Origin: Brachybacterium endophyticum
GTDB lineage: Bacteria > Actinomycetota > Actinomycetes > Actinomycetales > Dermabacteraceae
Length of the DNA: 64,000 nucleotides
Assembly: GCF_003130585.1 (NCBI RefSeq)
Contig: NZ_QFKX01000004.1
Coordinates: 62,001 to 126,000, forward strand
Direction: 5' to 3'
Positions 26,067 through 57,962 of the stretch are shown here, piece by piece. A program made the position numbers and the translations under genes. Positions within the stretch are counted from its first letter, which is position 1, and each line of letters begins with the position of its first letter. The notes under the pieces are model-generated. The model was not told the DNA's origin and searched no databases. It saw only the letters and a list, made by a program, of their open reading frames with translations.

Positions 26067-27881
26067 TCAGGCCCCGCAGTGCTGCGCGGCCTCCCGTGCG
26101 CATCGTGCACAGGGGATGTCCTCGCGCGAGCACGGGCAGAGGTCATCCAGGTCAGCCGCGGTCGGCAGGTGCGAGAGCGGGATGAGCCCGAGTCGTTCCT
26201 CGAGGAACACGTCACTGTCGGGCGGCGGGAAGCAGTCCTCTCCCAAGGGATCGGGAGCGTCCTGGATCGGCGGCAGCTCGTCCGGATCGATGATGCGGAT
26301 CCGTGGCCGGTTCTCCCGTGGTGGCGCAGGTAGCGGGGGTGGCCCTGGCGGCGCCTTGCCCACCGATGGGCGGCTGTCCATCGGCAGGCCGACGATCGGG
26401 GCAGGAGCGAGGCGCGCCGTGCGCCCGAGACGCGACGTCCAATGCACCAGGTGCGGCTCGGACGTCTCACCGACCCGTTCGGCGGTGCCCAGGAGCTCCT
26501 TGGTGCCGTTGCAGTACGCGCACAGACCCTGGCCGTCGTCGAAGGTGGTGGCACCCCCACGGGAGTGGGGACGGATGTGGTCGATCTGGCGGATCCCCGC
26601 CGAGCAGTACGGGCCCGCGCAGGTGGCGTCGCGCAGGGAGATCATGCGGGCGAGACCGCGCGGGAAGGCCCGGGCGCGCGATTCGGCCGCCACCAGCTCG
26701 CCACTGGTGGGGTGGGTGAACAGCCGACGCAGCACGAGCCTGGACTGCTCATCGAAGACGGTGTCGGGCTCGTCCGATGCCGCTGCTTCGCTCGTCGCCT
26801 TCCGGCTCCGGTGGCGGGGGAGTCGTTCGGTGATCGCCTCCCGGGCGACGCCCGGTGGGACCGTCCCGTACCCCTCGATCATCGCGGGATCCCCGTGCTC
26901 GGGGGCGAACAGGGTGCGCTCGGTCAGGACGAGCCCGACGTCCAGATGCACAGGATCCATACCCTCCTCCCGACCCAGCAGGGTGTCGGCGAACAGGTCG
27001 GCCATGATCTGCTGATGGGTGCGAGGGTCGCCCGCGACCACCTGCGCCTCGGCCTCGAGGGAGAGCTTGCGGCGGATCGCCGCGCAGTCGAGGGCGCTCA
27101 GGTGCGCGTGGACGTCCCCCATCCCGTGGGCACCGGGCGTCACGGTGACGCTGCGCTCGCGGGCGGCGACCACGTGCCGTCGCTGACTATTGCCGGGATC
27201 GATCTGCTGGACGAGCGCAGTGACCTCCTGACCCCAGCGGGTCGAGGAAGCGCCGTCGAGATCGGGTATCCGCGAGACGATGATGCTGTCCATCTCGCGC
27301 CGCTGGTCGACGTCGAGCGGCCCGCTGCTGCGGCCGATGGCGTGCGCCGCGGCCTCCGTCAAGCGCCCCTGTGCGAGGGCGCCGAACACCTGCGGCATGT
27401 CGTGCACGAGACGACGACCTGACCGCAGCCGCCCCGAGGCCCGTCCCGGGGAGATGCGAGAGGCCATGCGGATCTCGCTCGCGGTACGTCGCCCCCGGTC
27501 CCGCTCGGGAACTCCCTGCTGGACGTCCTGTGCGCGCAGGCATTCGTCGAGAGCGTCGCCCACGCGGATTTCGATCGCGCCGAGAGCGGAGCGGAGGGCA
27601 GCGATGTCGGCGAGGATCCCGGAGAGCTCGGCCGCACCGAGGTCTCCCTCATGGGGTCCGAAGGGGGCATCCGGGGCAACGGCGAGCTCGCCGAGAGCGC
27701 TCGCGATCTCCTGCAGATCGGGATCGGAGTGCGGCGCCGGCGTCGCGAGGACGGCTTCGGCCCGGCCGTCGTCGGTCGCGGCGGCGCGCAGGACGACGGA
27801 GCGCGCGAGGGTGGTCGCACGTGAGCGGCCATCGCCCCCACCGGGCTCCTCCGAGCGCCCCATCGCGCCTGCTGTGTCCAT
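26067..27881 (-). CDS. DUF222-HNH endonuclease (13E12-type), SOS-box promoter
   Basis: A 604-residue protein with an N-terminal DUF222 domain (about 60-400) and an HNH nuclease domain near 440-500. The HNH core shows CAGPYC, then IRQIDHIRPHSRGGATTFDDGQ and CAYCN, with both zinc-Cys pairs and the catalytic His. The C-terminus is Pro-rich and ends in a second Cys group, CPCSREDIPCARC. Such proteins are the 13E12 repeat family of mycobacteria. A LexA box lies 40 bases upstream of the ATG at 27881 (or 4 bases upstream of an alternative ATG at 27917). The role is unproven. Confidence 0.85.
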   Translation of the reverse strand: MDTAGAMGRSEEPGGGDGRSRATTLARSVVLRAAATDDGRAEAVLATPAPHSDPDLQEIASALGELAVAPDAPFGPHEGDLGAAELSGILADIAALRSALGAIEIRVGDALDECLRAQDVQQGVPERDRGRRTASEIRMASRISPGRASGRLRSGRRLVHDMPQVFGALAQGRLTEAAAHAIGRSSGPLDVDQRREMDSIIVSRIPDLDGASSTRWGQEVTALVQQIDPGNSQRRHVVAARERSVTVTPGAHGMGDVHAHLSALDCAAIRRKLSLEAEAQVVAGDPRTHQQIMADLFADTLLGREEGMDPVHLDVGLVLTERTLFAPEHGDPAMIEGYGTVPPGVAREAITERLPRHRSRKATSEAAASDEPDTVFDEQSRLVLRRLFTHPTSGELVAAESRARAFPRGLARMISLRDATCAGPYCSAGIRQIDHIRPHSRGGATTFDDGQGLCAYCNGTKELLGTAERVGETSEPHLVHWTSRLGRTARLAPAPIVGLPMDSRPSVGKAPPGPPPLPAPPRENRPRIRIIDPDELPPIQDAPDPLGEDCFPPPDSDVFLEERLGLIPLSHLPTAADLDDLCPCSREDIPCARCAREAAQHCGA

Positions 27882-27920
27882 GTCTCCATCGAACACCACG
27901 GTGGTCCGGAGCACCATAGT

Positions 27921-27936
27921 TCGAACGTACGTTCTA
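27921..27936. promoter_or_regulatory. LexA (SOS) box of the DUF222-HNH gene
   Basis: TCGAACGTACGTTCTA matches the actinobacterial SOS box TCGAAC-N4-GTTCGA at 11 of 12 fixed positions. It lies just upstream of the HNH gene on the minus strand. Confidence 0.8.
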
Positions 27937-27937
27937 T

Positions 27938-27953
27938 TGTGATGTGCATCACG
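27938..27953. promoter_or_regulatory. CRP/GlxR-like palindrome
   Basis: TGTGATGTGCATCACG matches the TGTGA-N6-TCACA pattern of CRP/GlxR sites at 9 of 10 fixed positions. It lies 1 base from the SOS box. Confidence 0.45.
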
Positions 27954-28083
27954 TTTCGCTCTTCCGTCCTCGCATCACCGCAGTTGAGATGTCCGACCCC
28001 TGACGGAGACTTCCCGACCGTCGGCAGGCGAAGGCTGCACGACCCCGGCCGGGGGTGGCGTTCGAGCGCTAGAGGCGTACGAT

Positions 28084-28099
28084 TCGAACGTCTGTTCGA
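28084..28099. promoter_or_regulatory. LexA (SOS) box of the imuA'-imuB-dnaE2 operon
   Basis: TCGAACGTCTGTTCGA is a perfect match to TCGAAC-N4-GTTCGA. A possible -10, TACGAT, abuts it at 28078-28083, so LexA would cover the transcription start. The imuA' ATG is 44 bases downstream. Confidence 0.92.
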
Positions 28100-28142
28100 G
28101 ACTCGCGATCGGTCGGGATCCACGGGAAGGAGGAGGTGGACC

Positions 28143-29144
28143 ATGAGCACAGCGCTGCATGTGCGAGCACTCCCCGGGGGAGCGGCGCCGGAGGCGGATC
28201 GGAACGAGCCGCAGGAGACGCGGAGCGACCCGGGAAAGACGCGGGACGCGCGCCACGAGCGGAGCGATCCGGGGGAGACGCACGCGGATCGTCTCGCGCG
28301 GGCCCGCGCCGCTCTCGGTGCCGCCGAGCGCAGCACGGCCCGGCACGGGAGCCGGATCGATCGCACCGCCTTCTCCGGTGGTCTCGGTGGTCCGACGGGT
28401 CTGGTCCGACCGGGCACGCGTCCCACCCCGGACACCGGCCGTCAGGAGAGCGCGGCGCCGGGGTCGGGCCCGGCCCCGGCGCCGGTCTCGGTCCCGTCCC
28501 CGGCGGAGACCTCTGCGCGCGTGCCGCTGCCGCCGCCGCTCGCCCCGCTGGTGCCGCACGGGTCCCTGCGCGCGGGCAGCACGGTCGCGGTGGACGGCGC
28601 GGGATCGGTCTCGCTCCTGCTCGCGATGGCCGCCTCGGCCTGCGGGGACGACGGCTGGTGTGCGCTCGCGGGTCTGCCCGACGCGGGCCTGCGTGCCGCC
28701 CACGACGCCGGCCTCGACCCGGAGCGTCTCGCCCTGGTCACTGCCACCGACACCGAGGCGATGCCGCAGCTGCCGCAGGTGCTCTCGGCACTCGTCGACG
28801 GCGTGGGGGTGCTCGTGCTCGGGCCGCGTCTGCGGATCCCGCCGTCGCTGCGGCGCAGTCTCACCGACCGCGCCCGTGCGCACGACACCCTGGTCCTCAC
28901 CGCCGATCCCTCCGGACGGGCCGACGTCCGGATGCGCATCGAGGAGGAGTCCTGGGAGGGGCTCGGCCAGGGCACCGGTCGTCTGCGCCGACGCTCCCTG
29001 CGGGTACGTTCCGCAGGCCGCGGCATCCCCGAGGGGAGCGCGATCGACATCGTGCTGCCCGAGGTCCACGGCCTGATCGCACCGGCACCGCACGCCGCCC
29101 CCGCCCGTCCGGCCTCGCTGCACATGATCAGGAGGGCAGGATGA
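28143..29144 (+). CDS. imuA': ImuA'-like mutasome protein
   Basis: Accessory factor of the damage-inducible translesion mutasome, 333 residues. The N-terminal 130 residues are polar and probably disordered. The C-terminal part is a RecA-like fold without a working Walker A: AGSTVAVDGAGSVSLLLAMAA stands where GKT would be expected. Divergent sequence makes this call depend on position: it is first in the cassette with imuB and dnaE2 and behind a perfect SOS box. The ATG at 28143 has GGAGGAGG upstream. Mycobacterial ImuA' bridges ImuB and RecA-type functions. Confidence 0.8.
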   Translation: MSTALHVRALPGGAAPEADRNEPQETRSDPGKTRDARHERSDPGETHADRLARARAALGAAERSTARHGSRIDRTAFSGGLGGPTGLVRPGTRPTPDTGRQESAAPGSGPAPAPVSVPSPAETSARVPLPPPLAPLVPHGSLRAGSTVAVDGAGSVSLLLAMAASACGDDGWCALAGLPDAGLRAAHDAGLDPERLALVTATDTEAMPQLPQVLSALVDGVGVLVLGPRLRIPPSLRRSLTDRARAHDTLVLTADPSGRADVRMRIEEESWEGLGQGTGRLRRRSLRVRSAGRGIPEGSAIDIVLPEVHGLIAPAPHAAPARPASLHMIRRAG

Positions 29145-29163: not shown

Positions 29164-30918
29164 ATGAGCCCCGCGCAGGCCGATGTGCTCGACCAGACCC
29201 CCACCGCGACCCGCATCGCGGCCGTCGTGCTGCCGCACTGGCCCCTGCTGGCGGCACGCGAGAAGCTCGCGCGGACCACGGCCCCGGCGACCACCACGTC
29301 ACCGCAGGCCCCACACTCCCCGCAAGCCCCCACAGCCCCCGAGACCCCCGCACCACCGCCGGTGATCGTCATGGACCGTCACCGGGTCGCGCACGCCGAT
29401 CAGGCCGCACGCGCGACGGGCGTGGCTGCCGGGATGCGTCGTCGCGCCGCCCAGGCCGCCTGCCCCGAGGCCGTCGTCGTCGAGGCCGACGCAGAGCACG
29501 AGAGCGGCCTGTTCGAGCTGGTCGCGGCGGCGGTCGACACCGTCGCCGCGGGCGTGGACGTGCTGCGCCCCGGCGTGCTGCTGATGTCGGCCCGCGGGCC
29601 CGCCCGTCACAGGGGAGGGGAGGAGGCCCTCGCCGAGGCGATCGTCGACGCGGTCGCCGAGCTGACCGGCTGGGATGCGATGGTCGGCATCGCCGACGGC
29701 CCCTTCGCCGCGCTGCTGGCCGCCCGCACCGGGCGGATCGTGCGGCCCGGTCGCAGTCGCAACTACCTGGGGCCGCACGCGATCTCCGCCCTGCGCGAGG
29801 CGCCCGTCGGCCCCGGGTGGGGGCATCGGGACCAGCCCGCGGCCGACTCCGCCCGCACCCGCCGCGTGGACCTCGCCGAGGTGATCGATCTCCTCGAGCG
29901 GCTCGGCATCCGCTCCCTCGAGGACTTCGCAGCGCTGCCCTCGACCTCGGTCACGGCCCGTTTCGGTCCCGATGTCGCCCAGCTGCACCTGCTCGCGCGC
30001 GGCGGCGAGCCGACGCCGCCGGAGGCGCATCACCCGACCCAGCCGCTCGAGGTCTCCCGCAGCCTGGACCCGCCGCTCGTGCGCGTGGACCAGGCGGCCT
30101 TCGCGGCACGTCCGATGGCCGAGGAGCTGCACGGGATGCTGGTGGCGCGAGGGCTCGTCTGCACCCGGCTGCGCATCCTGGCCCTCACCGCCTCGGGGCA
30201 GCAGATGGAGCGCACCTGGCGTCATGACGGCGCGCTGTCCCCGGCCGACGTCGTGGACCGCATCCGCTGGCAGTGCGACGGCTGGATCACCCGCGCCCGG
30301 ATGCGCGGCGAGGAGACCGGGCAGATCGTGCGCCTGGCCCTCGAGCCCGTGCAGCTGCGGCCCGCCGGCGAGGGCGCCCCGGCGCTCTGGGGGAGCGCCG
30401 GGGAGGCCGCGCAGCGTGCCGGCCGCGCCTTCGCCCGTGCACAGGGCCTGGCCGGGGAGGAGGCGGTGATGGTCCCCGTCGAGGTCGGGGGCCGGCTGCT
30501 CGCCGAGCAGGTGCGCCTGGTGCCCTGGCGCAGCGAACGACCGGCCGCGCGCCCGGGGCCCTGGCCGGGCTCCCTGCCGCGTCCGCTGCCCTCCGTCGTG
30601 CTGCGTGACCCGCCGCCCGTCCTGCTGCGGGACGAGGGCGGCCGGGCCGTCGTGGTCACCGCGCGCGCCCTGCTCAGCGCCGCCCCCGCCCTGCTCGAGG
30701 TGCCCCGCGAGGGCGCCGGGGTGCTCGACGCCCACGGCGTGGCGGGCGGACGTTCCTATGCCGTCCTCTCCCACGGGGCGCCGACGGTCCTGGACGAGCG
30801 CTGGTGGGCGACCGACGGCCGACGCGCCGCGCGCCTCGCGGTGGTGCTCGAGTCCGGGCGCGCCCTCGTCCTGCTCAGCCGGGAGGGTGCCTGGACCGTG
30901 GAGGGGATCCATGACTGA
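29164..30918 (+). CDS. imuB: ImuB, Y-family polymerase-like mutasome hub
   Basis: Y-family DNA polymerase fold of 584 residues that recruits DnaE2 to the sliding clamp rather than polymerising. The N-terminal VVLPHWPLLAAR replaces the D-x-D catalytic strand of active Y polymerases. Later LRPGVLLMSARG has no catalytic acidic pair. These losses are typical of ImuB. The helix-hairpin-helix region LLERLGIRSLEDFAALP and a little-finger domain follow. It begins 19 bases after imuA' and ends 15 bases before dnaE2. An extra Pro/Thr-rich loop lies near residues 40-62. Confidence 0.9.
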   Translation: MSPAQADVLDQTPTATRIAAVVLPHWPLLAAREKLARTTAPATTTSPQAPHSPQAPTAPETPAPPPVIVMDRHRVAHADQAARATGVAAGMRRRAAQAACPEAVVVEADAEHESGLFELVAAAVDTVAAGVDVLRPGVLLMSARGPARHRGGEEALAEAIVDAVAELTGWDAMVGIADGPFAALLAARTGRIVRPGRSRNYLGPHAISALREAPVGPGWGHRDQPAADSARTRRVDLAEVIDLLERLGIRSLEDFAALPSTSVTARFGPDVAQLHLLARGGEPTPPEAHHPTQPLEVSRSLDPPLVRVDQAAFAARPMAEELHGMLVARGLVCTRLRILALTASGQQMERTWRHDGALSPADVVDRIRWQCDGWITRARMRGEETGQIVRLALEPVQLRPAGEGAPALWGSAGEAAQRAGRAFARAQGLAGEEAVMVPVEVGGRLLAEQVRLVPWRSERPAARPGPWPGSLPRPLPSVVLRDPPPVLLRDEGGRAVVVTARALLSAAPALLEVPREGAGVLDAHGVAGGRSYAVLSHGAPTVLDERWWATDGRRAARLAVVLESGRALVLLSREGAWTVEGIHD

Positions 30919-30933
30919 GGCGAGGAGGATCCG

Positions 30934-33900
30934 ATGAGCCGCTGGTTCCTGGGCCCGCCCGCCTGGAAGGATCTCGAGGCGATCCTCTCGGACCGCGCGT
31001 CCGCGAGCGTGGAGCCCCCGATCACCGTCGAGCACACGGGACATCGGGAGACGCCCCGTCACGTCCCGCGCGCGGACGTCGCCTACGCGGAGCTGCACGC
31101 CCACTCGCACTTCAGCTTCCTGGACGGCGCCTCGAGTCCCGAGGACATGGTCGCCGAGGCCTCCTCGCTCGGGCTGCGGGCGCTCGCCCTCGTCGACCAC
31201 GACGGTCTGCCCGGGGCGGTGCGCTTCGCCCGCGCCGCCCGCGAGGAGGGCCTGGCGACCGTGTACGGCGCCGAGCTGACCCTGGGCCACGAGCCCGACA
31301 GCGAGCGGGCGAGCAGCCTGCCCGTGATCTCGCCCGAGCGCACCGGGGTCCCCGACCCGGACGGGGAGCACCTCCTGGTCCTGGTCCGCGACGCGGAGGG
31401 CTACCGCTCGCTCTCGGCCGCGATCGCCCGCGCCCACCTGGACAGCCGGCGCAAGGGCACGCCCCGCTACCGTCTGGACGAGCTCTCCCGGATCGCCCGC
31501 GAGGGGCACTGGCTCGTGCTCACCGGATGCCGCAAGGGCGCGGTGCAGCGGGCGGTGCGCCCGCTGGTGGAGGACGGTGACCTCGAAGGAGCGGCCCGGG
31601 CGGCCGCGCGCGAGATCACCCGGCTCCTCGAGCTGTTCGGCCCGGGCAACGTCGCCGTCGAGCTGGTGGCCGGGGGAGGCGCCCTGGACGACGAGATCCA
31701 CGACGCCCTCGTCCAGGGGGCGCGACTGGTGCGGGAGGAGACGGATCTGGACACGCTCACCCTGCCGGTGACCGCGAGCACCAACGCGCACTGCGCCCGC
31801 CCCTCCGACACGCGTCTGGTGGACGTCCACGCCGCCCTGCGCGCGGGCTCCTCCCTGGTCGATGCCGATCCCTACCTGCCCTCGCGGCCCGCCCACCTGC
31901 GCAGCGGCGAGGAGATGGCACAGCTGCTCCCGCGCTATCCCGGGGCGATCGCCACCGCCGCCAGGCTGGGGCAGGAGTGCGCCCTGGACCTGCAGCTGCT
32001 CGCCCCGGACCTGCCGCCCTTCCCCGTCCCCGCCGGCCACACCGAGGACAGCTGGCTGGTCGAGGTCGTCGAGCAGGGCGGACGCGAGCGCTACGGGCCG
32101 CGCCCTGCGACCGACAGCGACGAGGCCGACGAGGAGCACGTCCCCGGCGCCTGGGCGCAGATCGACCGCGAGCTCCAGGTCATCCGGGACCTGCACTTCC
32201 CCGGCTACTTCCTCATCGTCCGCGAGATCGTCGCCTTCTGCGAGCAGGAGGAGATCCTGTGCCAGGGTCGCGGCTCGGCCGCCAACAGCGCCGTCTGCTA
32301 CGCCCTCGGGATCACGGCCGTCGAGCCCGTCGGCCACCACCTGCTGTTCGAGCGCTTCCTCGCGCCCGAGCGCGACGGCCCGCCCGACATCGACCTCGAC
32401 ATCGCCTCCGATCGTCGCGAGGAGGTCATCCAGCACGTCTACGAGCGCTACGGGCGCGAGTACGCTGCGCAGGTCGCCAACGTCATCAGCTATCGGGCGA
32501 AGCTCGCCGTGCGCGATGCGGCCCGCGCGCTCGGCTACGACGTCGGCATGCAGGACGCCTGGTCCAAGAGGATCGAGCGCTCCTTCAGCTCGCTGGCGGA
32601 CGCCGACGTCCCCGCCGACGTCGTCGAACTCGCCCAGCAGCTGCGCGAGGCCCCGCGCCACCTGGGCATCCACTCCGGCGGCATGGTGCTCGCGGACCGT
32701 CCCGTGATCGAGGTGTGCCCGGTGCAGTGGGCGGCCATGGAGGACCGCAGCGTGCTGCAGTGGGACAAGGACGACTGCGCCGACGCCGGCCTGGTGAAGT
32801 TCGACCTGCTGGGCCTCGGGATGCTCACCGCGATCGACCACTGCCTGCGTCTGGTGGCCGAGCACCACGGGGAGCACCACGGCCTGCGCAACCTCCCGCA
32901 GGAGGATCCCGCGGTCTACGACATGCTGTGCACCGGCGACAGCGTGGGCGTGTTCCAGGTCGAGTCCCGCGCGCAGATCGCGACCCTGCCGCGTCTGAAG
33001 CCCGTGTGCTTCTACGACCTCGTGGTCGAGGTGGCCCTGATCCGGCCCGGCCCCATCCAGGGCGGCTCCGTGCACCCCTACATCCGGCGCCGGGCGGGGG
33101 AGGAGGAGACCACCTACCTCCACCCGCTGCTGGAGAAATCCCTGGGCCGCACCTACGGGGTTCCGCTGTTCCAGGAGCAGCTGATGCAGATGGCCGTGGA
33201 CGTCGCCGACTTCACCCCGGCGCTCGCGGACCAGCTGCGCCGGGCGATGGGCTCCAAGCGCTCCACGCAGAAGATGCTCGCGCTCTCGGACCAGCTGTTC
33301 GCGGGGATGGCCCGCCACGGGATCACGGGGGAGGACGCCGAGGCGATCCAGCGCAAGCTGCTCGCCTTCGCCAACTACGGCTTCCCCGAGTCCCACGCCT
33401 ACTCCTTCGCCTACATCGTGTACGCGAGCGCCTACCTCAAGTGCCATTACCCGGCGGCCTTCACCGCGGCGCTGCTGCGCTCCCAGCCGATGGGCTTCTA
33501 CTCCCCGCAGTCGTTGGTGGCCGATGCCCGCCGCCACGGGGTGGAGACCCGTGGCGTCGACGTCGCCGTCTCCGAGGTGCGGACCGGACTCGAGACCGAC
33601 GCCGAGCACCGCGCCTACCGCCTGCCCGGTAACGAGGACCTGCTGGGCAGGGCAGCCCGTCACCGCGGCCCCGAGGGCTGGTCGGAGGAGGAGAAGCAGG
33701 TGCTGCGATCGGCCAGGCCCCAGGTGCAGGGGGAGCTCGCGGCGCAGGGGCCGACGATCCGTCTGGGTCTCGAGCAGGTGCGCGGCATCGGCGAGGAGAA
33801 GGCCGAGGAGATCGTCACCGCCCGCGAGAAGGGCGGGGCCTTCGCCTCGATCAGCGATCTCGCGCGGCGGGTGCGGCTGAGCGCCCGTCAGCTCGAGGCC

Positions 33901-34452
33901 CTCGCGACCGCCGGCGCCCTTGACTCGCTCGCCCCCTCGCGCCGACAGGCGCTGTGGAGCGCGGGCGCGGCCGCCCAGGAGTCGCCCGACGTGCTGCCCC
34001 ACCTGGCGATCGGGGCCGATGCGCCGATGCTCCCGGGCCTCAGCGACGCCGAGCTCGCCTCCGCCGATTCCTGGGCCACCGGGATCACGCTCGCGGACCA
34101 TCCGATGGCGCTCGTGCGGGAGGACCTCGAGCGCGCCGGTGCGCTCTCGATCCGCGGGGCACGGGAGGCCGAGGACTCCACCCGGATCCGCGTGGGCGGG
34201 GTGATCACGCACCGGCAGCGGCCCGGGACCGCGAGCGGCATCACCTTCCTCAGCCTCGAGGACGAGACCGGGATCCTCAACGTCGTGTGCTCGAAGGGGT
34301 TCTGGTCACGTCACCGGGCCGTGCTGCGCACCTCCCGGGCGGTCGTGATCCGCGGGATCGTCGAGAACCTCACCGGCGCGGTGAACCTGGTGGCCGACGG
34401 GGTCGAGGTGCTCGAGCTCGCCGGCGCGGGCCGGGCCCGGGACTTCCGCTAG
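30934..34452 (+). CDS. dnaE2: Error-prone DNA polymerase DnaE2
   Basis: C-family polymerase of 1172 residues for SOS translesion synthesis. The N-terminal PHP domain starts at ELHAHSHFSFLDGASS. The palm motif PDIDLDI carries D485 and D487. GSKRSTQKM in the fingers, a helix-hairpin-helix region (ISDLARRVRLSARQLEAL) and the C-terminal OB-fold (RVGGVITHRQRPGTASG) follow. Layout and length match DnaE2 rather than replicative DnaE1. The ATG at 30934 has GAGGAGG upstream. It is last in the operon and ends at a hairpin shared with the convergent YhgE gene. Confidence 0.96.
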   Translation: MSRWFLGPPAWKDLEAILSDRASASVEPPITVEHTGHRETPRHVPRADVAYAELHAHSHFSFLDGASSPEDMVAEASSLGLRALALVDHDGLPGAVRFARAAREEGLATVYGAELTLGHEPDSERASSLPVISPERTGVPDPDGEHLLVLVRDAEGYRSLSAAIARAHLDSRRKGTPRYRLDELSRIAREGHWLVLTGCRKGAVQRAVRPLVEDGDLEGAARAAAREITRLLELFGPGNVAVELVAGGGALDDEIHDALVQGARLVREETDLDTLTLPVTASTNAHCARPSDTRLVDVHAALRAGSSLVDADPYLPSRPAHLRSGEEMAQLLPRYPGAIATAARLGQECALDLQLLAPDLPPFPVPAGHTEDSWLVEVVEQGGRERYGPRPATDSDEADEEHVPGAWAQIDRELQVIRDLHFPGYFLIVREIVAFCEQEEILCQGRGSAANSAVCYALGITAVEPVGHHLLFERFLAPERDGPPDIDLDIASDRREEVIQHVYERYGREYAAQVANVISYRAKLAVRDAARALGYDVGMQDAWSKRIERSFSSLADADVPADVVELAQQLREAPRHLGIHSGGMVLADRPVIEVCPVQWAAMEDRSVLQWDKDDCADAGLVKFDLLGLGMLTAIDHCLRLVAEHHGEHHGLRNLPQEDPAVYDMLCTGDSVGVFQVESRAQIATLPRLKPVCFYDLVVEVALIRPGPIQGGSVHPYIRRRAGEEETTYLHPLLEKSLGRTYGVPLFQEQLMQMAVDVADFTPALADQLRRAMGSKRSTQKMLALSDQLFAGMARHGITGEDAEAIQRKLLAFANYGFPESHAYSFAYIVYASAYLKCHYPAAFTAALLRSQPMGFYSPQSLVADARRHGVETRGVDVAVSEVRTGLETDAEHRAYRLPGNEDLLGRAARHRGPEGWSEEEKQVLRSARPQVQGELAAQGPTIRLGLEQVRGIGEEKAEEIVTAREKGGAFASISDLARRVRLSARQLEALATAGALDSLAPSRRQALWSAGAAAQESPDVLPHLAIGADAPMLPGLSDAELASADSWATGITLADHPMALVREDLERAGALSIRGAREAEDSTRIRVGGVITHRQRPGTASGITFLSLEDETGILNVVCSKGFWSRHRAVLRTSRAVVIRGIVENLTGAVNLVADGVEVLELAGAGRARDFR

Positions 34453-34485: not shown

Positions 34486-37191
34486 TCAGGCGGCCGCACC
34501 ACCGGCCCGCAGGTGTTTACCGGGGCGCACCGTCCGGGCGCCCCTCGAGGCCACCAGGGTGACCACCACCGACACCGCGAACCAGGCGGCGATGGCGAGC
34601 AGGGTCCCCGCGGTCGAGGTCAGCGAACCGCCCAGCGAGGCATGCACCAGACCGCGACTGACGATCGTGATCGGCATCAGGCCGCTGATCGACTGCAGCA
34701 ACGGCGGCGCCGTCTCGAGCGGGAGGATCCCCACCAGCACCACCACCTGCAGCACCATCAGCACGATCGAGAGGATCCTGCCGATCCGATCGCCCAGCAG
34801 AGCGAGCAGCGCCTGGTGGAAGGCCGCGAACATCACCGCCCCCGCCAGGCACACGAGTCCCACCGAGAGCGGCGAGACCGGGTCCACACCGATGGCCGTG
34901 ATCACCGCCAGCACGGCGATGGTCTGCACGAGTGCCAGCAGCAGACCCGGCACCAGCGACCGCAGCACGACCTTCCACATGGGCACCGCGCCGTCCAGCA
35001 GCCGCTTGGACAGGGCGGGCATCAGCAGGAAGATCCCGAAGGCACCGAGCCACATGGCCAGGGCGGCGACGAAGGGGAAGGTCGCCGTGGCGGCGCCCGC
35101 CGCCTCGTGGGCCCGGGAGGAATAGCTCGAGATCGGCTGGGAGGCCTGGCTCGACATCCTGTCCCGCTCGGACTTCGAGTAGTTCGGGATCTGGTCGGCG
35201 CCCTTGTCCAGGCCGTCGGCCAGATCGCCCGTCCCGTCGGCGAGCTTCGAGGAGCCGTCGGCGAGCTTGTCGTTGCCGTCGGCCAGCTGGTCGGTCCCGT
35301 CGGCCAGCCCGGAGGCCCCGTCCGCGAGCCCCTGCGTGCCGTCGGCGAGCTGCGAGGTGCCGTCGGCCAGCTGGGAGGATCCGTCGGACAGCTTGTCCGC
35401 GCCGTCGGCGCTCTGGCCGACGCCGTCGGCCAGGTCCGAGGCGCCGCCGGCGAGCTTGTGGGCGCCCTTCGCGCTCGAGTCCGTCCCGTCGGCGAGCTTC
35501 TGCGCGCCGTCGGACAGGTCCGAGGCGCCGTCCGCGCTGTCCCTGGTGCCGTCGGCCACCTTGGTCGCCCCGTCGTCGAGGTCGTCGACGCCGCCGGCGA
35601 AGCGGTGCAGGCCGTCGGTGTACTGCTGCAGGCCGTCCACGAGCTCGGGAACCTCGGTGCCGAAGGTGTCGGCGCCCTCGGCGACCTGCTCGGCGCCCGT
35701 GGCCAGGCCCGGGTTCTGCGCGGTGCCGTCCCCCTCGAAGACCTGGGAGACACCGTCGGTGTAGGAGTCGACGCCGTCCGCGGTCTGCTGGGAGATGGAC
35801 GCCAGGTCGTTGCCCTGACCGTCGCCGGCCAGAGCCGTGTCCAGGCCGTCCTTCTGCTGCGAGAGGCCGGCGGTGGCCTCGGCGCACTTGGCGTCGTCGC
35901 GATCGTCGACGCAGTACTGCTGCACCGCCTCCACGGTGGCGTCCATGCCCGGGTTCTGACCCCCGTCACCATGGACGACGCTGTCGACCCCCTGCACGCC
36001 CTTGGCGACGCCGTCGGCTCCTTCGCTCAGTCCGTCGCCGGCGGTCTTCAGCCCGGGGTTCTGCGCGGTGCCGTCGCCGTTCCAGGCCGCGTCCGCCCCG
36101 TCGCCCAGCTGCTGTGCGCCGTCGGCGAGGTCCTTCGCGCCCTTCTCCAGGCCGGGGTTCTTCGAGGTCCCGTCCCCGGCGATCCCGGCGGTGATCGCGT
36201 CGGCCGAGGGCACCAGACCCGGGTTCTTGGCGGTGCCGTCCCCGCGCAGCGCGGTCTTCAGCCCGCCCACGCCGTCGGCGACGCCCTGGGACCCGTCGGC
36301 CAGGTCTCCCAGCCCGTCGGAGAGGGAGGACGTGCCGTCCGAGAGCTGGTCCGCGCCGCCGGAGAGGTCGTCGAGACCGTTCGCGAGATCGTCGGTGCCG
36401 CCCGCGAGATCGTCGGCACCGCCGGAGAGCTGACCGAGCCCGTCGGCCAGGTCCGAGGTGCCGTCCGAGAGGTCGCCGGCACCCTTGGAGAGCTCGGGGG
36501 CGTTGTCGGCCAGCTGCTGGGAGCCGTCGGCCAGCTCGTCGGCGCCGTCGGCCAGGTCGTGGGTGCCGTCGGCAGACTTCTTCACGCCGTCGTCGAGCTG
36601 GTCGGCGCCGTCGGAGAGGTCCGAGGCGCCATCGGCGACGTCACCGAAGTTCTTGTGCATCTCGTTGAAGCCGACGTAGAGCTTGTCCAGGTACTGCTCG
36701 GTGAACTGACTGCCCATCGACTGGGAGGCGGCCTTGGCCACCGTCGAGCCGATGAGGGAGTCGAGCATGCCGGAGGAGTCGTCCGTGTACACCTGCACCT
36801 GGGCCTTCGCGGCATCGGTGGAGCCGATCGAGGCGAGGTTCTTCGAGAAGTCCTTCGGGATCACGATGACCGCCGAGTAGGTGCCGTCCTTCAGTCCGTC
36901 CTTCGCGTCGTCCTGCGAGGTCAGGGACCAGTCGAATCCTGTCTCCTGATCCGAGTCCTTCGCCGTCGAGGGCTGGGTGAGCGCCCCGGCGAGGGTGCGC
37001 CCGAGCGGGACCTGCTGCTCCTTGCCGTCGACCTTCATGGTCGCGCCGTCGTCGAGGTTCACCACGGCGGCCGGCACCTTGTCGATGTTGTCCACGCGCC
37101 CGGTCAGCGCCCACATGCCGATGCCCGCGACGAGCAGCGGCAGCAGCAGGACGATGATCAGGGAGGGGATGTGGCGGGAGAGCGTTCTCAT
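34486..37191 (-). CDS. YhgE/Pip family membrane protein with DG-rich repeats
   Basis: A 901-residue protein of the YhgE/Pip (phage infection protein) family, which forms membrane complexes with large extracellular regions. One N-terminal helix (9-30) precedes the domain with PAAVVNLD. A repeat region then runs from about 185 to 670: heptads of the type L-[AS]-D-G-[AST]-x-x in two blocks, and between them five copies near GDGTAxNPGL. Two Cys residues 10 apart (YCVDDRDDAKC) may form a disulfide. Six C-terminal helices end the protein. It overlaps the MMPL gene by 4 bases, so the two are coexpressed. Confidence 0.88.
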   Translation of the reverse strand: MRTLSRHIPSLIIVLLLPLLVAGIGMWALTGRVDNIDKVPAAVVNLDDGATMKVDGKEQQVPLGRTLAGALTQPSTAKDSDQETGFDWSLTSQDDAKDGLKDGTYSAVIVIPKDFSKNLASIGSTDAAKAQVQVYTDDSSGMLDSLIGSTVAKAASQSMGSQFTEQYLDKLYVGFNEMHKNFGDVADGASDLSDGADQLDDGVKKSADGTHDLADGADELADGSQQLADNAPELSKGAGDLSDGTSDLADGLGQLSGGADDLAGGTDDLANGLDDLSGGADQLSDGTSSLSDGLGDLADGSQGVADGVGGLKTALRGDGTAKNPGLVPSADAITAGIAGDGTSKNPGLEKGAKDLADGAQQLGDGADAAWNGDGTAQNPGLKTAGDGLSEGADGVAKGVQGVDSVVHGDGGQNPGMDATVEAVQQYCVDDRDDAKCAEATAGLSQQKDGLDTALAGDGQGNDLASISQQTADGVDSYTDGVSQVFEGDGTAQNPGLATGAEQVAEGADTFGTEVPELVDGLQQYTDGLHRFAGGVDDLDDGATKVADGTRDSADGASDLSDGAQKLADGTDSSAKGAHKLAGGASDLADGVGQSADGADKLSDGSSQLADGTSQLADGTQGLADGASGLADGTDQLADGNDKLADGSSKLADGTGDLADGLDKGADQIPNYSKSERDRMSSQASQPISSYSSRAHEAAGAATATFPFVAALAMWLGAFGIFLLMPALSKRLLDGAVPMWKVVLRSLVPGLLLALVQTIAVLAVITAIGVDPVSPLSVGLVCLAGAVMFAAFHQALLALLGDRIGRILSIVLMVLQVVVLVGILPLETAPPLLQSISGLMPITIVSRGLVHASLGGSLTSTAGTLLAIAAWFAVSVVVTLVASRGARTVRPGKHLRAGGAAA
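35195..36640 (-). repeat. Coding repeats in YhgE/Pip: DG heptads and GDGTAxNPGL decapeptides
   Basis: 21-base units encode L-[AS]-D-G heptads at about 35195-35585 and 36255-36640. Five 30-base units encoding GDGTAxNPGL-like decapeptides lie near 35704, 35945, 36049, 36148 and 36214. All stay in frame. The periodicity is protein-level, not an array of identical DNA repeats. Confidence 0.85.
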
Positions 37192-55602: not shown

Positions 55603-56868
55603 GTGACCCGCTTCCTCGTCCCCGCCTCAGCGCTCGTCGGCGGACTCCAGCTCGCCCTGCTGAACCCGGTGATCGCCCTCCTGCTGGCGAGCCTGTTCGA
55701 CGCGGGCCCCGGCGAGGTGGGTCTGGTCCTGGCGATCATGAACGCGAGCGGATTCCTCGCAGCCATCCTGATCCCTGCCTGGGCCGATCGGCACGGCGAC
55801 TACACCCGCCCGATGATCCTGTGCGCGGCGCTCACCCTCGCCACGGTGCTCGCGCTCGCCGTGGTCTCGAGCCTGACGCTCGCCGGGATCGTCCTGGTGG
55901 TCCTCGCGGGCCCGGCCGGCGTGTGGTCCGGGATGCTGTTCGCCCAGCAGAGGGCCTCGGGAGCCGACTCCGAGCAGGTCGTGCGCACGCGCGCCGTGTT
56001 CTCCGTGGCCTGGGTCGCGGGGCCCCCGCTCGCGACCGGGGTGATGACCGGGTTCGGCGACCGGGCGGTGCTGCTCCTGATCGCCGCGGTCGCGGCCGGG
56101 AGCATCGCCCTCAGCATCCTGCTGGACCGCGCGGTCGCCTCGGCGAGGAAGCGCCGGTCCGAGGCAGGTGACGCGGGGAGCCCGGACGATCCCGACGCTG
56201 GACCCGGCTCCGGGCCCGACACGACCGGGGATGCGGCGCTCCCCGAGCAGCGCAGGACGGGCCGGCTCGAACTGGTCGTGGTCACGGCCGCGATCACCGC
56301 GCTGCAGGCGGGGAACGCCGGCTCGGTGACGGCGATGCCCCTGCTCGTGACCGACCATCTCGCGCTCGCCCCGGTCTGGGCGGGCGCGGCGCTGGGCACC
56401 TGTGCGGCGCTCGAGGCCCCGGCCCTGCTGCTGATGGGGCGGCTCACGCGTTCGCTGCGCCCCACCGCCCTGCTGGCCGCCGGGGCAGTCCTGGGAGCGG
56501 TCTACTACGCCGTGGTGCCGCTGCTGGCCTCGCCGGTGGCCCTCGTCGGCCTGCAGATCCTCAATGCCTTGTCGATCGCCGCCCTGTCGGGCATCGCGCT
56601 GGCGTGGATGCAGGAGGCCATCGCCGGGCCGGGACTCGCCTCGGGCATCTACCTCAACTCCCGGCGCGTGGGCGCGATCGTCTCCGGTCCGCTGCTGGGC
56701 CTCGCCGCACTGGGGACGCTCGGGTACGCGATCACCTTCTGGGCCTTCGCCCTGCTCGCCGCGCTCGCGGGCCTCGCGATCGCTCTCGTCGGCCGCGACG
56801 CGGGGTCCCGACGACGTCCAGGACCTCCGCGCGACTCTCAGGCGGAGACGAAGGGGAAGGTCGCGTAG
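55603..56868 (+). CDS. MFS transporter (sugar-efflux-like)
   Basis: 12-helix facilitator of 421 residues, with LLNPVIALLLASLFDAG in helix 1. The cytoplasmic loop LDRAVASARKRRSEAGDAG (central) is followed by a long polar stretch of about 50 residues. The C-terminal half contains SGIYLNSRRVGAIVSGPLLG. This resembles the SetA/sugar-efflux group, and its place divergent from lacI supports a sugar-related role, but the substrate is unknown. GTG at 55603 was chosen because helix 1 follows directly. Its last 31 bases overlap the convergent AlkZ-like gene. Confidence 0.8.
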   Translation: MTRFLVPASALVGGLQLALLNPVIALLLASLFDAGPGEVGLVLAIMNASGFLAAILIPAWADRHGDYTRPMILCAALTLATVLALAVVSSLTLAGIVLVVLAGPAGVWSGMLFAQQRASGADSEQVVRTRAVFSVAWVAGPPLATGVMTGFGDRAVLLLIAAVAAGSIALSILLDRAVASARKRRSEAGDAGSPDDPDAGPGSGPDTTGDAALPEQRRTGRLELVVVTAAITALQAGNAGSVTAMPLLVTDHLALAPVWAGAALGTCAALEAPALLLMGRLTRSLRPTALLAAGAVLGAVYYAVVPLLASPVALVGLQILNALSIAALSGIALAWMQEAIAGPGLASGIYLNSRRVGAIVSGPLLGLAALGTLGYAITFWAFALLAALAGLAIALVGRDAGSRRRPGPPRDSQAETKGKVA

Positions 56869-57962
56869 GCGCGTTCTGCCTCCCGTCGTGCCACCGCCGG
56901 CATCGGCCCCAGCGGATCGAGCTCCAGCCGTCGGTCCCCGGGCCGTCCCTCGCGCCGCCAGAAGCCGATCATGCGTCCGCGGCGGATCATCCCCCGACGG
57001 AAGATCCCGTTGCGCCCCGGCACGAGCAGGGGCAGCTCCTCCTCGCCGAGCAGGGGGAGGCGGTCGGGGTGGCCCAGCACGATCTCGTCGAACCCGGGCA
57101 GCAGCTGCAGGGCGTCCAGGTGCGCCGACGGGGTCGAGGCGAGCTGCTCGGCGAGGCCCGGGGCCGCGTACCGCGTCTCCCCCGCCTCGTCCGCTCCGGC
57201 CTCCTCGACCTCCGCCAGGACCGAGGGCAGCGCTCGCCGCAGCAGCGAGAGCGGCAGCTTGCTCCACCAGGCGGCGTCCCGGAGCGTCGCGGGTCCGTGC
57301 CCGAGGAGGTAGCGCCGCAGCAGCTCCGCCGCGGCAGCGGTCCGATCGCCGTCGAACCGTCCTTCGAGTCCGCTGTCCGGAGGCAGATGCGTGTTGGCGA
57401 GCACGACCGCGGTGTCGTCGTCCTTCCACGGCCCGTAGACGGCGACCCCACTCGCCACCAGGTGGCTGAGGAGGTGGTACCCCTGCCCCTTCTCGGAGGC
57501 GAGCCCCGCCTGCTGCCAGGCGGCGAGGAGCTCCGAGCGCGGCAGGCCGGCAGGGACCTCGGCCAGCGTGTCCTCGAGGACCGCACGAGCCCGGTCCACC
57601 TGCTCCTGATCCAGGCCCAGCGCGCCGCGGCGGGCCCTCTGTGCGCGCAGCGGCCCCTCCGCGCACAGCTCGGTCAGCCACCGCATGTCGGCGGCTGCGG
57701 TCACGAAGACCGTCCCGCGCATCGGGTAGCCGCGCACGATCTCGCCGCGGTCGAACGCGGCGATGACGTCAGCGGGCCCGGGAGCGGGACCTTCGCCCGC
57801 GTCGGATTCCCCGAGGCGCAGGGCGAGGGAGCCGACGACGCCCGGCAGGTCCTGCGCCTGCGAGGCGAGCAGATGGGACGCGGCCGCGGCAGCGGAGCCG
57901 AAGGGGCGTGTGACGAGACCCTGGCCCAGCAGGCGGGCGCGGACCAGATCGGGCTGGGGCAT
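56838..57962 (-). CDS. Winged-helix protein, AlkZ-like DNA glycosylase family
   Basis: A 374-residue protein of the DUF1006/HTH_42 family. AlkZ in Streptomyces excises azinomycin-induced interstrand crosslinks. The catalytic Q-x-Q pattern is seen as SQAQD (Q35, Q37), near the N-terminus. Other family marks are RGYPMRGTVF, LPRSELLAAW and the end LLPGFDEIVLGH and PGRNGIFRRG. A -10 box just before the ATG suggests a leaderless mRNA. It may repair bulky or crosslinked DNA; substrates are unknown. Confidence 0.82.
   Translation of the reverse strand: MPQPDLVRARLLGQGLVTRPFGSAAAAASHLLASQAQDLPGVVGSLALRLGESDAGEGPAPGPADVIAAFDRGEIVRGYPMRGTVFVTAAADMRWLTELCAEGPLRAQRARRGALGLDQEQVDRARAVLEDTLAEVPAGLPRSELLAAWQQAGLASEKGQGYHLLSHLVASGVAVYGPWKDDDTAVVLANTHLPPDSGLEGRFDGDRTAAAAELLRRYLLGHGPATLRDAAWWSKLPLSLLRRALPSVLAEVEEAGADEAGETRYAAPGLAEQLASTPSAHLDALQLLPGFDEIVLGHPDRLPLLGEEELPLLVPGRNGIFRRGMIRRGRMIGFWRREGRPGDRRLELDPLGPMPAVARREAERAYATFPFVSA

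Follow-up and report, generated by a model that had tools for sequence, protein, structure and literature searches.

A DUF222-HNH gene with its own predicted LexA box lies head to head with the mutasome operon in one clade of Brachybacterium

In Brachybacterium endophyticum and three relatives a gene for a DUF222-HNH (13E12) protein lies head to head with the mutasome operon imuA'-imuB-dnaE2, and each of the two promoters carries a predicted LexA box. The reading that we hold to be probable is that the DUF222-HNH gene is a member of the SOS regulon which landed beside the mutasome once and would be co-induced with it from its own promoter. Proteins of this kind are numerous in actinobacteria.

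Results

Two divergent genes and the sites between them

The window, that is the whole stretch of 64,000 nucleotides that was analysed, contains a stretch at 27882-28142 flanked by two divergent genes, one for the DUF222-HNH protein on the minus strand and imuA' on the plus strand. The features considered here are the following.

26067-27881, minus strand: gene for the DUF222-HNH protein (probable span), 604 aa when read from ATG 27881, which is conserved; ATG 27917 opens the longest ORF
27921-27936, no strand: LexA box 1, TCGAACGTACGTTCTA, 11/12 match, HNH promoter region
27938-27952, no strand: CRP-like site, TGTGATGTGCATCACG, TGTGA-N6-TCAC, 1 bp from box 1
27989-28011, plus strand: RecA-NDp/PafBC-type element, ATGTCCGAC-N8-GAGACT, pointing at imuA'
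28078-28083, plus strand: candidate -10 (TACGAT) of the imuA' SOS promoter, drawn from the alignment and abutting box 2
28084-28099, no strand: LexA box 2, TCGAACGTCTGTTCGA, 12/12 match, imuA' promoter
28143-29144, plus strand: imuA', 333 aa, NCBIfam NF058630 at 112.1 bits (cut-off 65)
29164-30918, plus strand: imuB, 584 aa, PF00817 (IMS) at 49.2 bits (cut-off 23.2)
30934-34452, plus strand: dnaE2, 1172 aa, NCBIfam NF004225 (error-prone DNA polymerase) at 1366 bits (cut-off 939)

The three mutasome genes lie together and are contiguous, and their profile matches, all over the cut-offs, bear out the identity that a sequence-only reading had given them. No Pfam match was found for imuA'. The imuB product scored far under the cut-offs of the NCBIfam Pol IV models and no SxDE motif was seen in it by eye, an absence which we take to fit ImuB. 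Convergent with dnaE2 is a gene (34486-37191, minus strand) for a 901-aa membrane protein (PF12698) in which short L-A-D-G-type repeats follow one another over a long stretch.

Both boxes were scored against the actinobacterial LexA (SOS) operator palindrome TCGAAC-N4-GTTCGA over its 12 core positions, and both are predicted sites near a promoter. The sequence-only reading had reported a perfect box for imuA' and a box with one mismatch for the HNH gene, 163 bp apart from start to start, and we found exactly this. It also had the boxes facing opposite ways, which holds for the promoters, the LexA box itself being palindromic.

Under a Markov model of the window (30 runs), 64 kb would be expected to hold 0 perfect and 0.13 one-mismatch LexA sites. 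A single further one-mismatch site does occur, at 57352-57367; as it lies inside an ORF (56838-57962) it is probably a chance match. Such a background would allow box 1 to be fortuitous as well, but a Markov model gives 225 bp of the gap's composition a 0.003 chance of a site with at most one mismatch, and the core of the box is conserved. In an alignment of the gap from four Brachybacterium genomes (G000, the window's own, with G010, G012 and G034; 225 columns) all 24 core positions of the two boxes are identical, while each box keeps two of its four unconstrained central bases. Measured against the 120/225 columns of the gap that are invariant, the hypergeometric P for core invariance is 4e-4 for box 1 and 8e-8 for both boxes; outside the named elements 64/155 columns are invariant. 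For these predicted sites conservation is a stronger argument against chance than the Markov expectation, and we regard a fortuitous box 1 as scarcely credible.

The same divergent pair is present in G010, G012 and G034, where the boxes read TCGAACGCAYGTTCTA and TCGAACGCGTGTTCGA and lie 154 bp apart. The HNH proteins of these three genomes share 58-60% identity with that of the window and are mutually close, so in effect the conservation is seen across a single deep divergence. The deviation that gives box 1 its TTCTA ending appears compatible with function, since the same variant is the sole box with at most one mismatch before imuA' in three genomes of another genus of the family (G038, G039 and G041). 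A single LexA gene is present in the window's own genome and is preceded by a box of at most one mismatch; an 11/12 LexA box stands upstream of its recA, a gene identified by eye. From these predicted sites we infer LexA binding and damage induction at both promoters.

Box 1 probably serves the HNH gene and box 2 imuA'

The first start codon of the HNH gene's longest ORF, ATG 27917, lies 3 bp from box 1 and is doubtful, the codon being CTG in the three orthologues. The first Met common to all four orthologues is at ATG 27881, preceded by GGAG, and hence the gene probably has the shorter span listed above. With this start, 40 bp separate box 1 from the gene, and the box sits where a repressor site belongs. 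No clear -10 of the HNH gene was discerned in the promoter region. On the other side the candidate -10 of imuA' reads TAGAAT in the three orthologues. The earlier proposal that one SOS promoter joins the two genes is thus not upheld, as each box fits a promoter of its own.

The chief alternative is that box 1 represents a displaced distal operator of imuA', with LexA at both boxes repressing the mutasome and the HNH gene a bystander. Most other Brachybacterium do have a second LexA-like site (at most two mismatches), placed some 62-65 bp ahead of the main box, and they have it without such an HNH gene. In the window's clade, however, the two boxes are 154-163 bp apart and the PafBC-type element lies between them, whereas elsewhere the distal box follows the element in the sequences inspected. 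The imperfect half is also the opposite one, GTTCTA here against TCGTAY, TCGCAT or CCGTAC elsewhere, and box 1 is close to the HNH start. Taken together these differences leave a distal operator distinctly unlikely, and we retain the reading in which box 1 belongs to the HNH gene.

A PafBC-type element and a CRP-like site

The gap contains two further conserved elements, neither of them named in the sequence-only reading. In the PafBC-type element 16/23 columns are invariant in the four genomes. The 9-mer ATGTCCGAC is also found upstream of the genome's own recA, followed after 8 nt by TAGTGT, and a pattern written from the 27989-28011 site itself has its single exact match in the window there. 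The RecA-NDp consensus, quoted in PMC5656591 as tTGTCRgtg-8 nt-TannnT, is fitted in part. With a permissive pattern, and as a count without a shuffle baseline, the element was found before imuA' in 36/43 family regions. About 3 kb to the left of the window (G000:C12:57813-59099) is a 689-aa frame with two WYL domains, probably a PafB-PafC fusion to judge from this architecture. In other Brachybacterium the second LexA-like site comes right after the PafBC-type element, and LexA may repress the PafBC promoter there too.

The CRP-family consensus is TGTGA-N6-TCACA. The half-sites of the CRP-like site are invariant at 9/9 positions in the four genomes, and TGTGA-N6-TCAC has one exact match in the window, although one-mismatch matches are not enriched (7 found against 8.55 expected). 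The genome contains one strong HTH_Crp_2 match. This putative site may be a second input to the HNH gene, and we infer the action of PafBC and CRP at the two elements from their resemblance to such sites.

Distribution of the head-to-head pair

The regions upstream of imuA' were examined across the family, in 37 Brachybacterium genomes and six others, and a LexA box with at most one mismatch was found in 42/43. DUF222 genes were called with a 67-sequence profile, which gave 22 Brachybacterium loci and 4 loci in other families. Hence 22/37 Brachybacterium have a DUF222 gene upstream of imuA', in either orientation and with differing HNH type: 14 are co-directional, four are SOS head-to-head pairs (G000, G010, G012 and G034) and four are of another divergent type, beginning about 300-560 bp from the nearest LexA box. 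The place upstream of imuA' seems to receive DUF222 genes of differing type repeatedly.

In an imuA' tree of 30 rows, drawn from the 37 Brachybacterium genomes with imuA', the four pair-bearing genomes form one clade with 100/99 support, and the sister of this clade is G006. At the G006 locus (L093) a different gene is divergent from imuA', about 200-1085 bp upstream; by eye its start resembles a DUF1778/TacA-type antitoxin. For the other families of the order we hand-picked 80 loci, mostly those with better E-values, from 147 outside the family (170 genomes had an imuA' match). A LexA box was present at 73/80, counting one inside the matched region (L221) and with one locus (L155) of only 813 bases. 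A DUF222 frame was present at 4/80, in all cases co-directional and in one case a fragment about 2.2 kb away, and the divergent SOS pair was found at 0/80. The presence of the pair in one clade of four genomes and its absence from these 80 loci indicate that it is local and most likely arose once.

This distribution bears on two other readings. One is a true functional pair, as suggested in the sequence-only reading. On this view the HNH protein would work together with ImuA'-ImuB-DnaE2, perhaps nicking DNA or marking it for error-prone synthesis, and joint expression would be what preserves the arrangement. In its favour, there is a LexA site at each promoter in the four-genome footprint and the arrangement is kept in the four genomes of the clade. 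Excerpts of PMC7911356 describe a common late, high-dose induction pattern for dnaE2, Rv3074 and Rv3776 of Mycobacterium tuberculosis, and those of PMC4181829 propose, as a hypothesis, that 13E12 HNH proteins, RuvABC, and DnaE2 with ImuA/B make up a repair system. Against it, the pair is confined to 4/37 Brachybacterium with imuA' and to 0/80 loci of other families, so in most genomes the mutasome manages without an HNH neighbour; we consider a dedicated partnership unlikely, if worth keeping in view. The other reading treats the HNH gene as a 13E12-type gene, selfish or mobile, which exploits SOS induction to spread and is here by chance. The abundance of DUF222 genes (nine in this genome) and the variety of types before imuA' would suit such a gene, but it has been kept throughout its clade, and we think this explanation very unlikely. 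A single landing of an SOS-regulon gene with its own promoter remains our preferred account.

LexA boxes at DUF222 genes in general

Within the window's own genome 1/9 DUF222 genes has a box with at most one mismatch. Among 50 distinct Brachybacterium DUF222 upstream regions four have such a box, all from the window's clade, and general LexA control of Brachybacterium DUF222 genes was rejected on this count; seven further regions have a two-mismatch site. The DUF222 genes near imuA' were likewise rejected as general SOS genes, with 0/12 co-directional genes having a box of at most one mismatch (12/14 had usable upstream sequence, and that of G009 has a two-mismatch site) and the four genes of the other divergent type starting some 300-560 bp away from the nearest box. 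A further 11 upstream stretches of other DUF222 genes gave one site with at most one mismatch, about 0.8 kb from its gene.

Outside Brachybacterium, boxes with at most one mismatch were found at 6/26 and 7/39 DUF222 genes in the order and 13/30 in the class, or 26/95 altogether. The shuffle baseline for the 26, 39 and 30 regions was 0.04, 0 and 0.02 (about 0.06 expected in total), and a reversed control pattern gave 0/95. The scan covered 450 bp before the DUF222 domain; L250, L271 and L308 were dropped for lack of sequence and the Brachybacterium loci L274 and L275 were left out. Forty of the DUF222 stretches were chosen from listed matches that start early in the profile.

Five genomes were selected for their many DUF222 genes. 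In three genomes of one genus at least 11/20 perfect boxes stand within 300 bp upstream of a DUF222 domain (about 0.013 expected), and in the two other DUF222-rich genomes 1/14 and 0/6 perfect boxes do so among the matches listed. Together this gives at least 12/40 perfect boxes (4/7, 3/5, 4/8, 1/14 and 0/6). DUF222 matches occur in 65/79 genomes of the class sample. By the measure of these predicted boxes, DUF222-HNH genes recur in the SOS regulon throughout the class Actinomycetes, and we regard this as a more useful outcome than the local pair. The literature that we searched, consulted in extracts, yielded no description of LexA-box enrichment upstream of DUF222 genes.

A DnaA-box-like sequence, TTATCCACA, was observed with at most one mismatch in 32/50 distinct Brachybacterium DUF222 upstream regions (shuffles 1.1), with 52/54 sites in the gene's orientation. 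It is missing from the window's HNH clade and was present in 2/21 order-set regions and 10/123 imuA' upstream regions.

The HNH protein

The HNH protein (P0001) consists of a DUF222 domain (PF02720, 54.2 bits, cut-off 24.4) followed by an HNH domain (PF01844, 30.2 bits, cut-off 21.4), which is the 13E12/DUF222-HNH architecture. Its triad is H447-D461-N470 (P0001 numbering). A complete HNH/HNN catalytic triad is lacking, the middle residue being Asp in 4/4 orthologues, all of which read H-D-N, while a paralogue in the same genome (L001) has H-N-N. Among fetched loci whose motif fitted the search expression, the middle residue is Asn in 43/52 motif matches of the genus set (repeats included), 15/17 of the order set and 10/10 of the class set; the nine Asp matches of the genus set are the window's clade with repeats and one own-genome frame with a stop. 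The Asn-to-Asp change suggests weakened or altered cleavage, and the protein probably binds or nicks DNA during damage tolerance.

Other searches with P0001 gave little. The best match among solved structures had E 0.46, no NCBIfam model and none of the PADLOC anti-phage defence families matched, and PHROGs gave one weak HNH match (E 0.00085). A structure prediction from the four-row alignment had a mean pLDDT of 39.5 and no reading was drawn from it.

Discussion

Our data are consistent with a model where the gap contains two separate damage-inducible promoters. In the right-hand promoter the -10 would abut box 2, with the PafBC-type element some 75-95 bp upstream of this box; given both elements, imuA'-imuB-dnaE2 may be inducible by the RecA/LexA and the PafBC damage pathways. 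On the left, box 1 would cover the DUF222-HNH promoter, with the adjoining CRP-like site perhaps a second input. In undamaged cells LexA would silence both genes, and RecA-driven cleavage of LexA would free both, so that co-induction of the HNH gene and the mutasome is likely if the predicted sites are bound. Co-expression would then come about by common LexA control and not by a common operator, the HNH gene having arrived beside the mutasome a single time, in an ancestor shared by the four Brachybacterium genomes.

A bolder proposal is that DUF222-HNH proteins form a main SOS output across the class and that this clade has made the H-D-N variant a dedicated partner of the mutasome. We regard it as a long shot. 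If it were true, the variant would bind or nick damaged DNA without shredding it, would be released by LexA together with ImuB-DnaE2 and would steer error-prone synthesis. A natural mutasome pair whose promoters show a conservation footprint, and whose HNH protein has a variant motif, provides a compact test case for a possible role of these proteins in induced mutagenesis. The enrichment of boxes outside Brachybacterium makes the question of DUF222 genes in the SOS response a general one, not peculiar to mycobacteria.

Rv3074 and Rv3776 of M. tuberculosis are presumably 13E12/DUF222 proteins. LexA-linked 13E12 HNH genes are already known, as is a mutasome under both LexA and PafBC; the head-to-head arrangement and the H-D-N motif make the present case a variant of these. 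That some mycobacterial 13E12 proteins are LexA targets had been mentioned in the sequence-only reading, and three sources agree: excerpts of PMC4181829 place 13E12-family HNH genes among the M. tuberculosis LexA targets, those of PMC8151990 report that five putative HNH genes respond along with the mutasome genes and depend on RecA for this, and those of PMC7911356 report a LexA box and HNH similarity for Rv3074 and Rv3776, induced with dnaE2 by moxifloxacin. The window's gene resembles these two, as far as those excerpts describe them, in being an HNH-type gene with a LexA box. It differs from them in standing head to head with imuA', in the CRP-like site by its box and in the H-D-N motif.

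In mycobacteria the mutasome genes are under LexA as well as PafBC, according to passages of PMC10421592 (citing Adefisayo 2021), and compared with what is given there the operon described here has the same genes, a predicted LexA box at the promoter and a candidate PafBC-type element. The three genes are contiguous here whereas the mycobacterial cassette is split, and here there is a divergent HNH neighbour. Two predicted LexA sites lie upstream of the operon, as at the Streptomyces venezuelae dnaE2 promoter, where excerpts of PMC9380542 report two bound sites; one of these, dnaE2-1 (TCGTACGTACGTTC), is similar to the distal sites seen in other Brachybacterium. That text contains none of the words HNH, imuA and DUF222.

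A parallel to the HNH motif, a likeness of spacing, is found in MSMEG_1275, an HNH nuclease whose overexpression kills Mycobacterium smegmatis and whose killing is abolished by H258A or N272A (PMC9416677, in excerpt). Its H258-N272-N281 spacing equals that of H447-D461-N470, and the position of N272 is Asp in the window's HNH protein.
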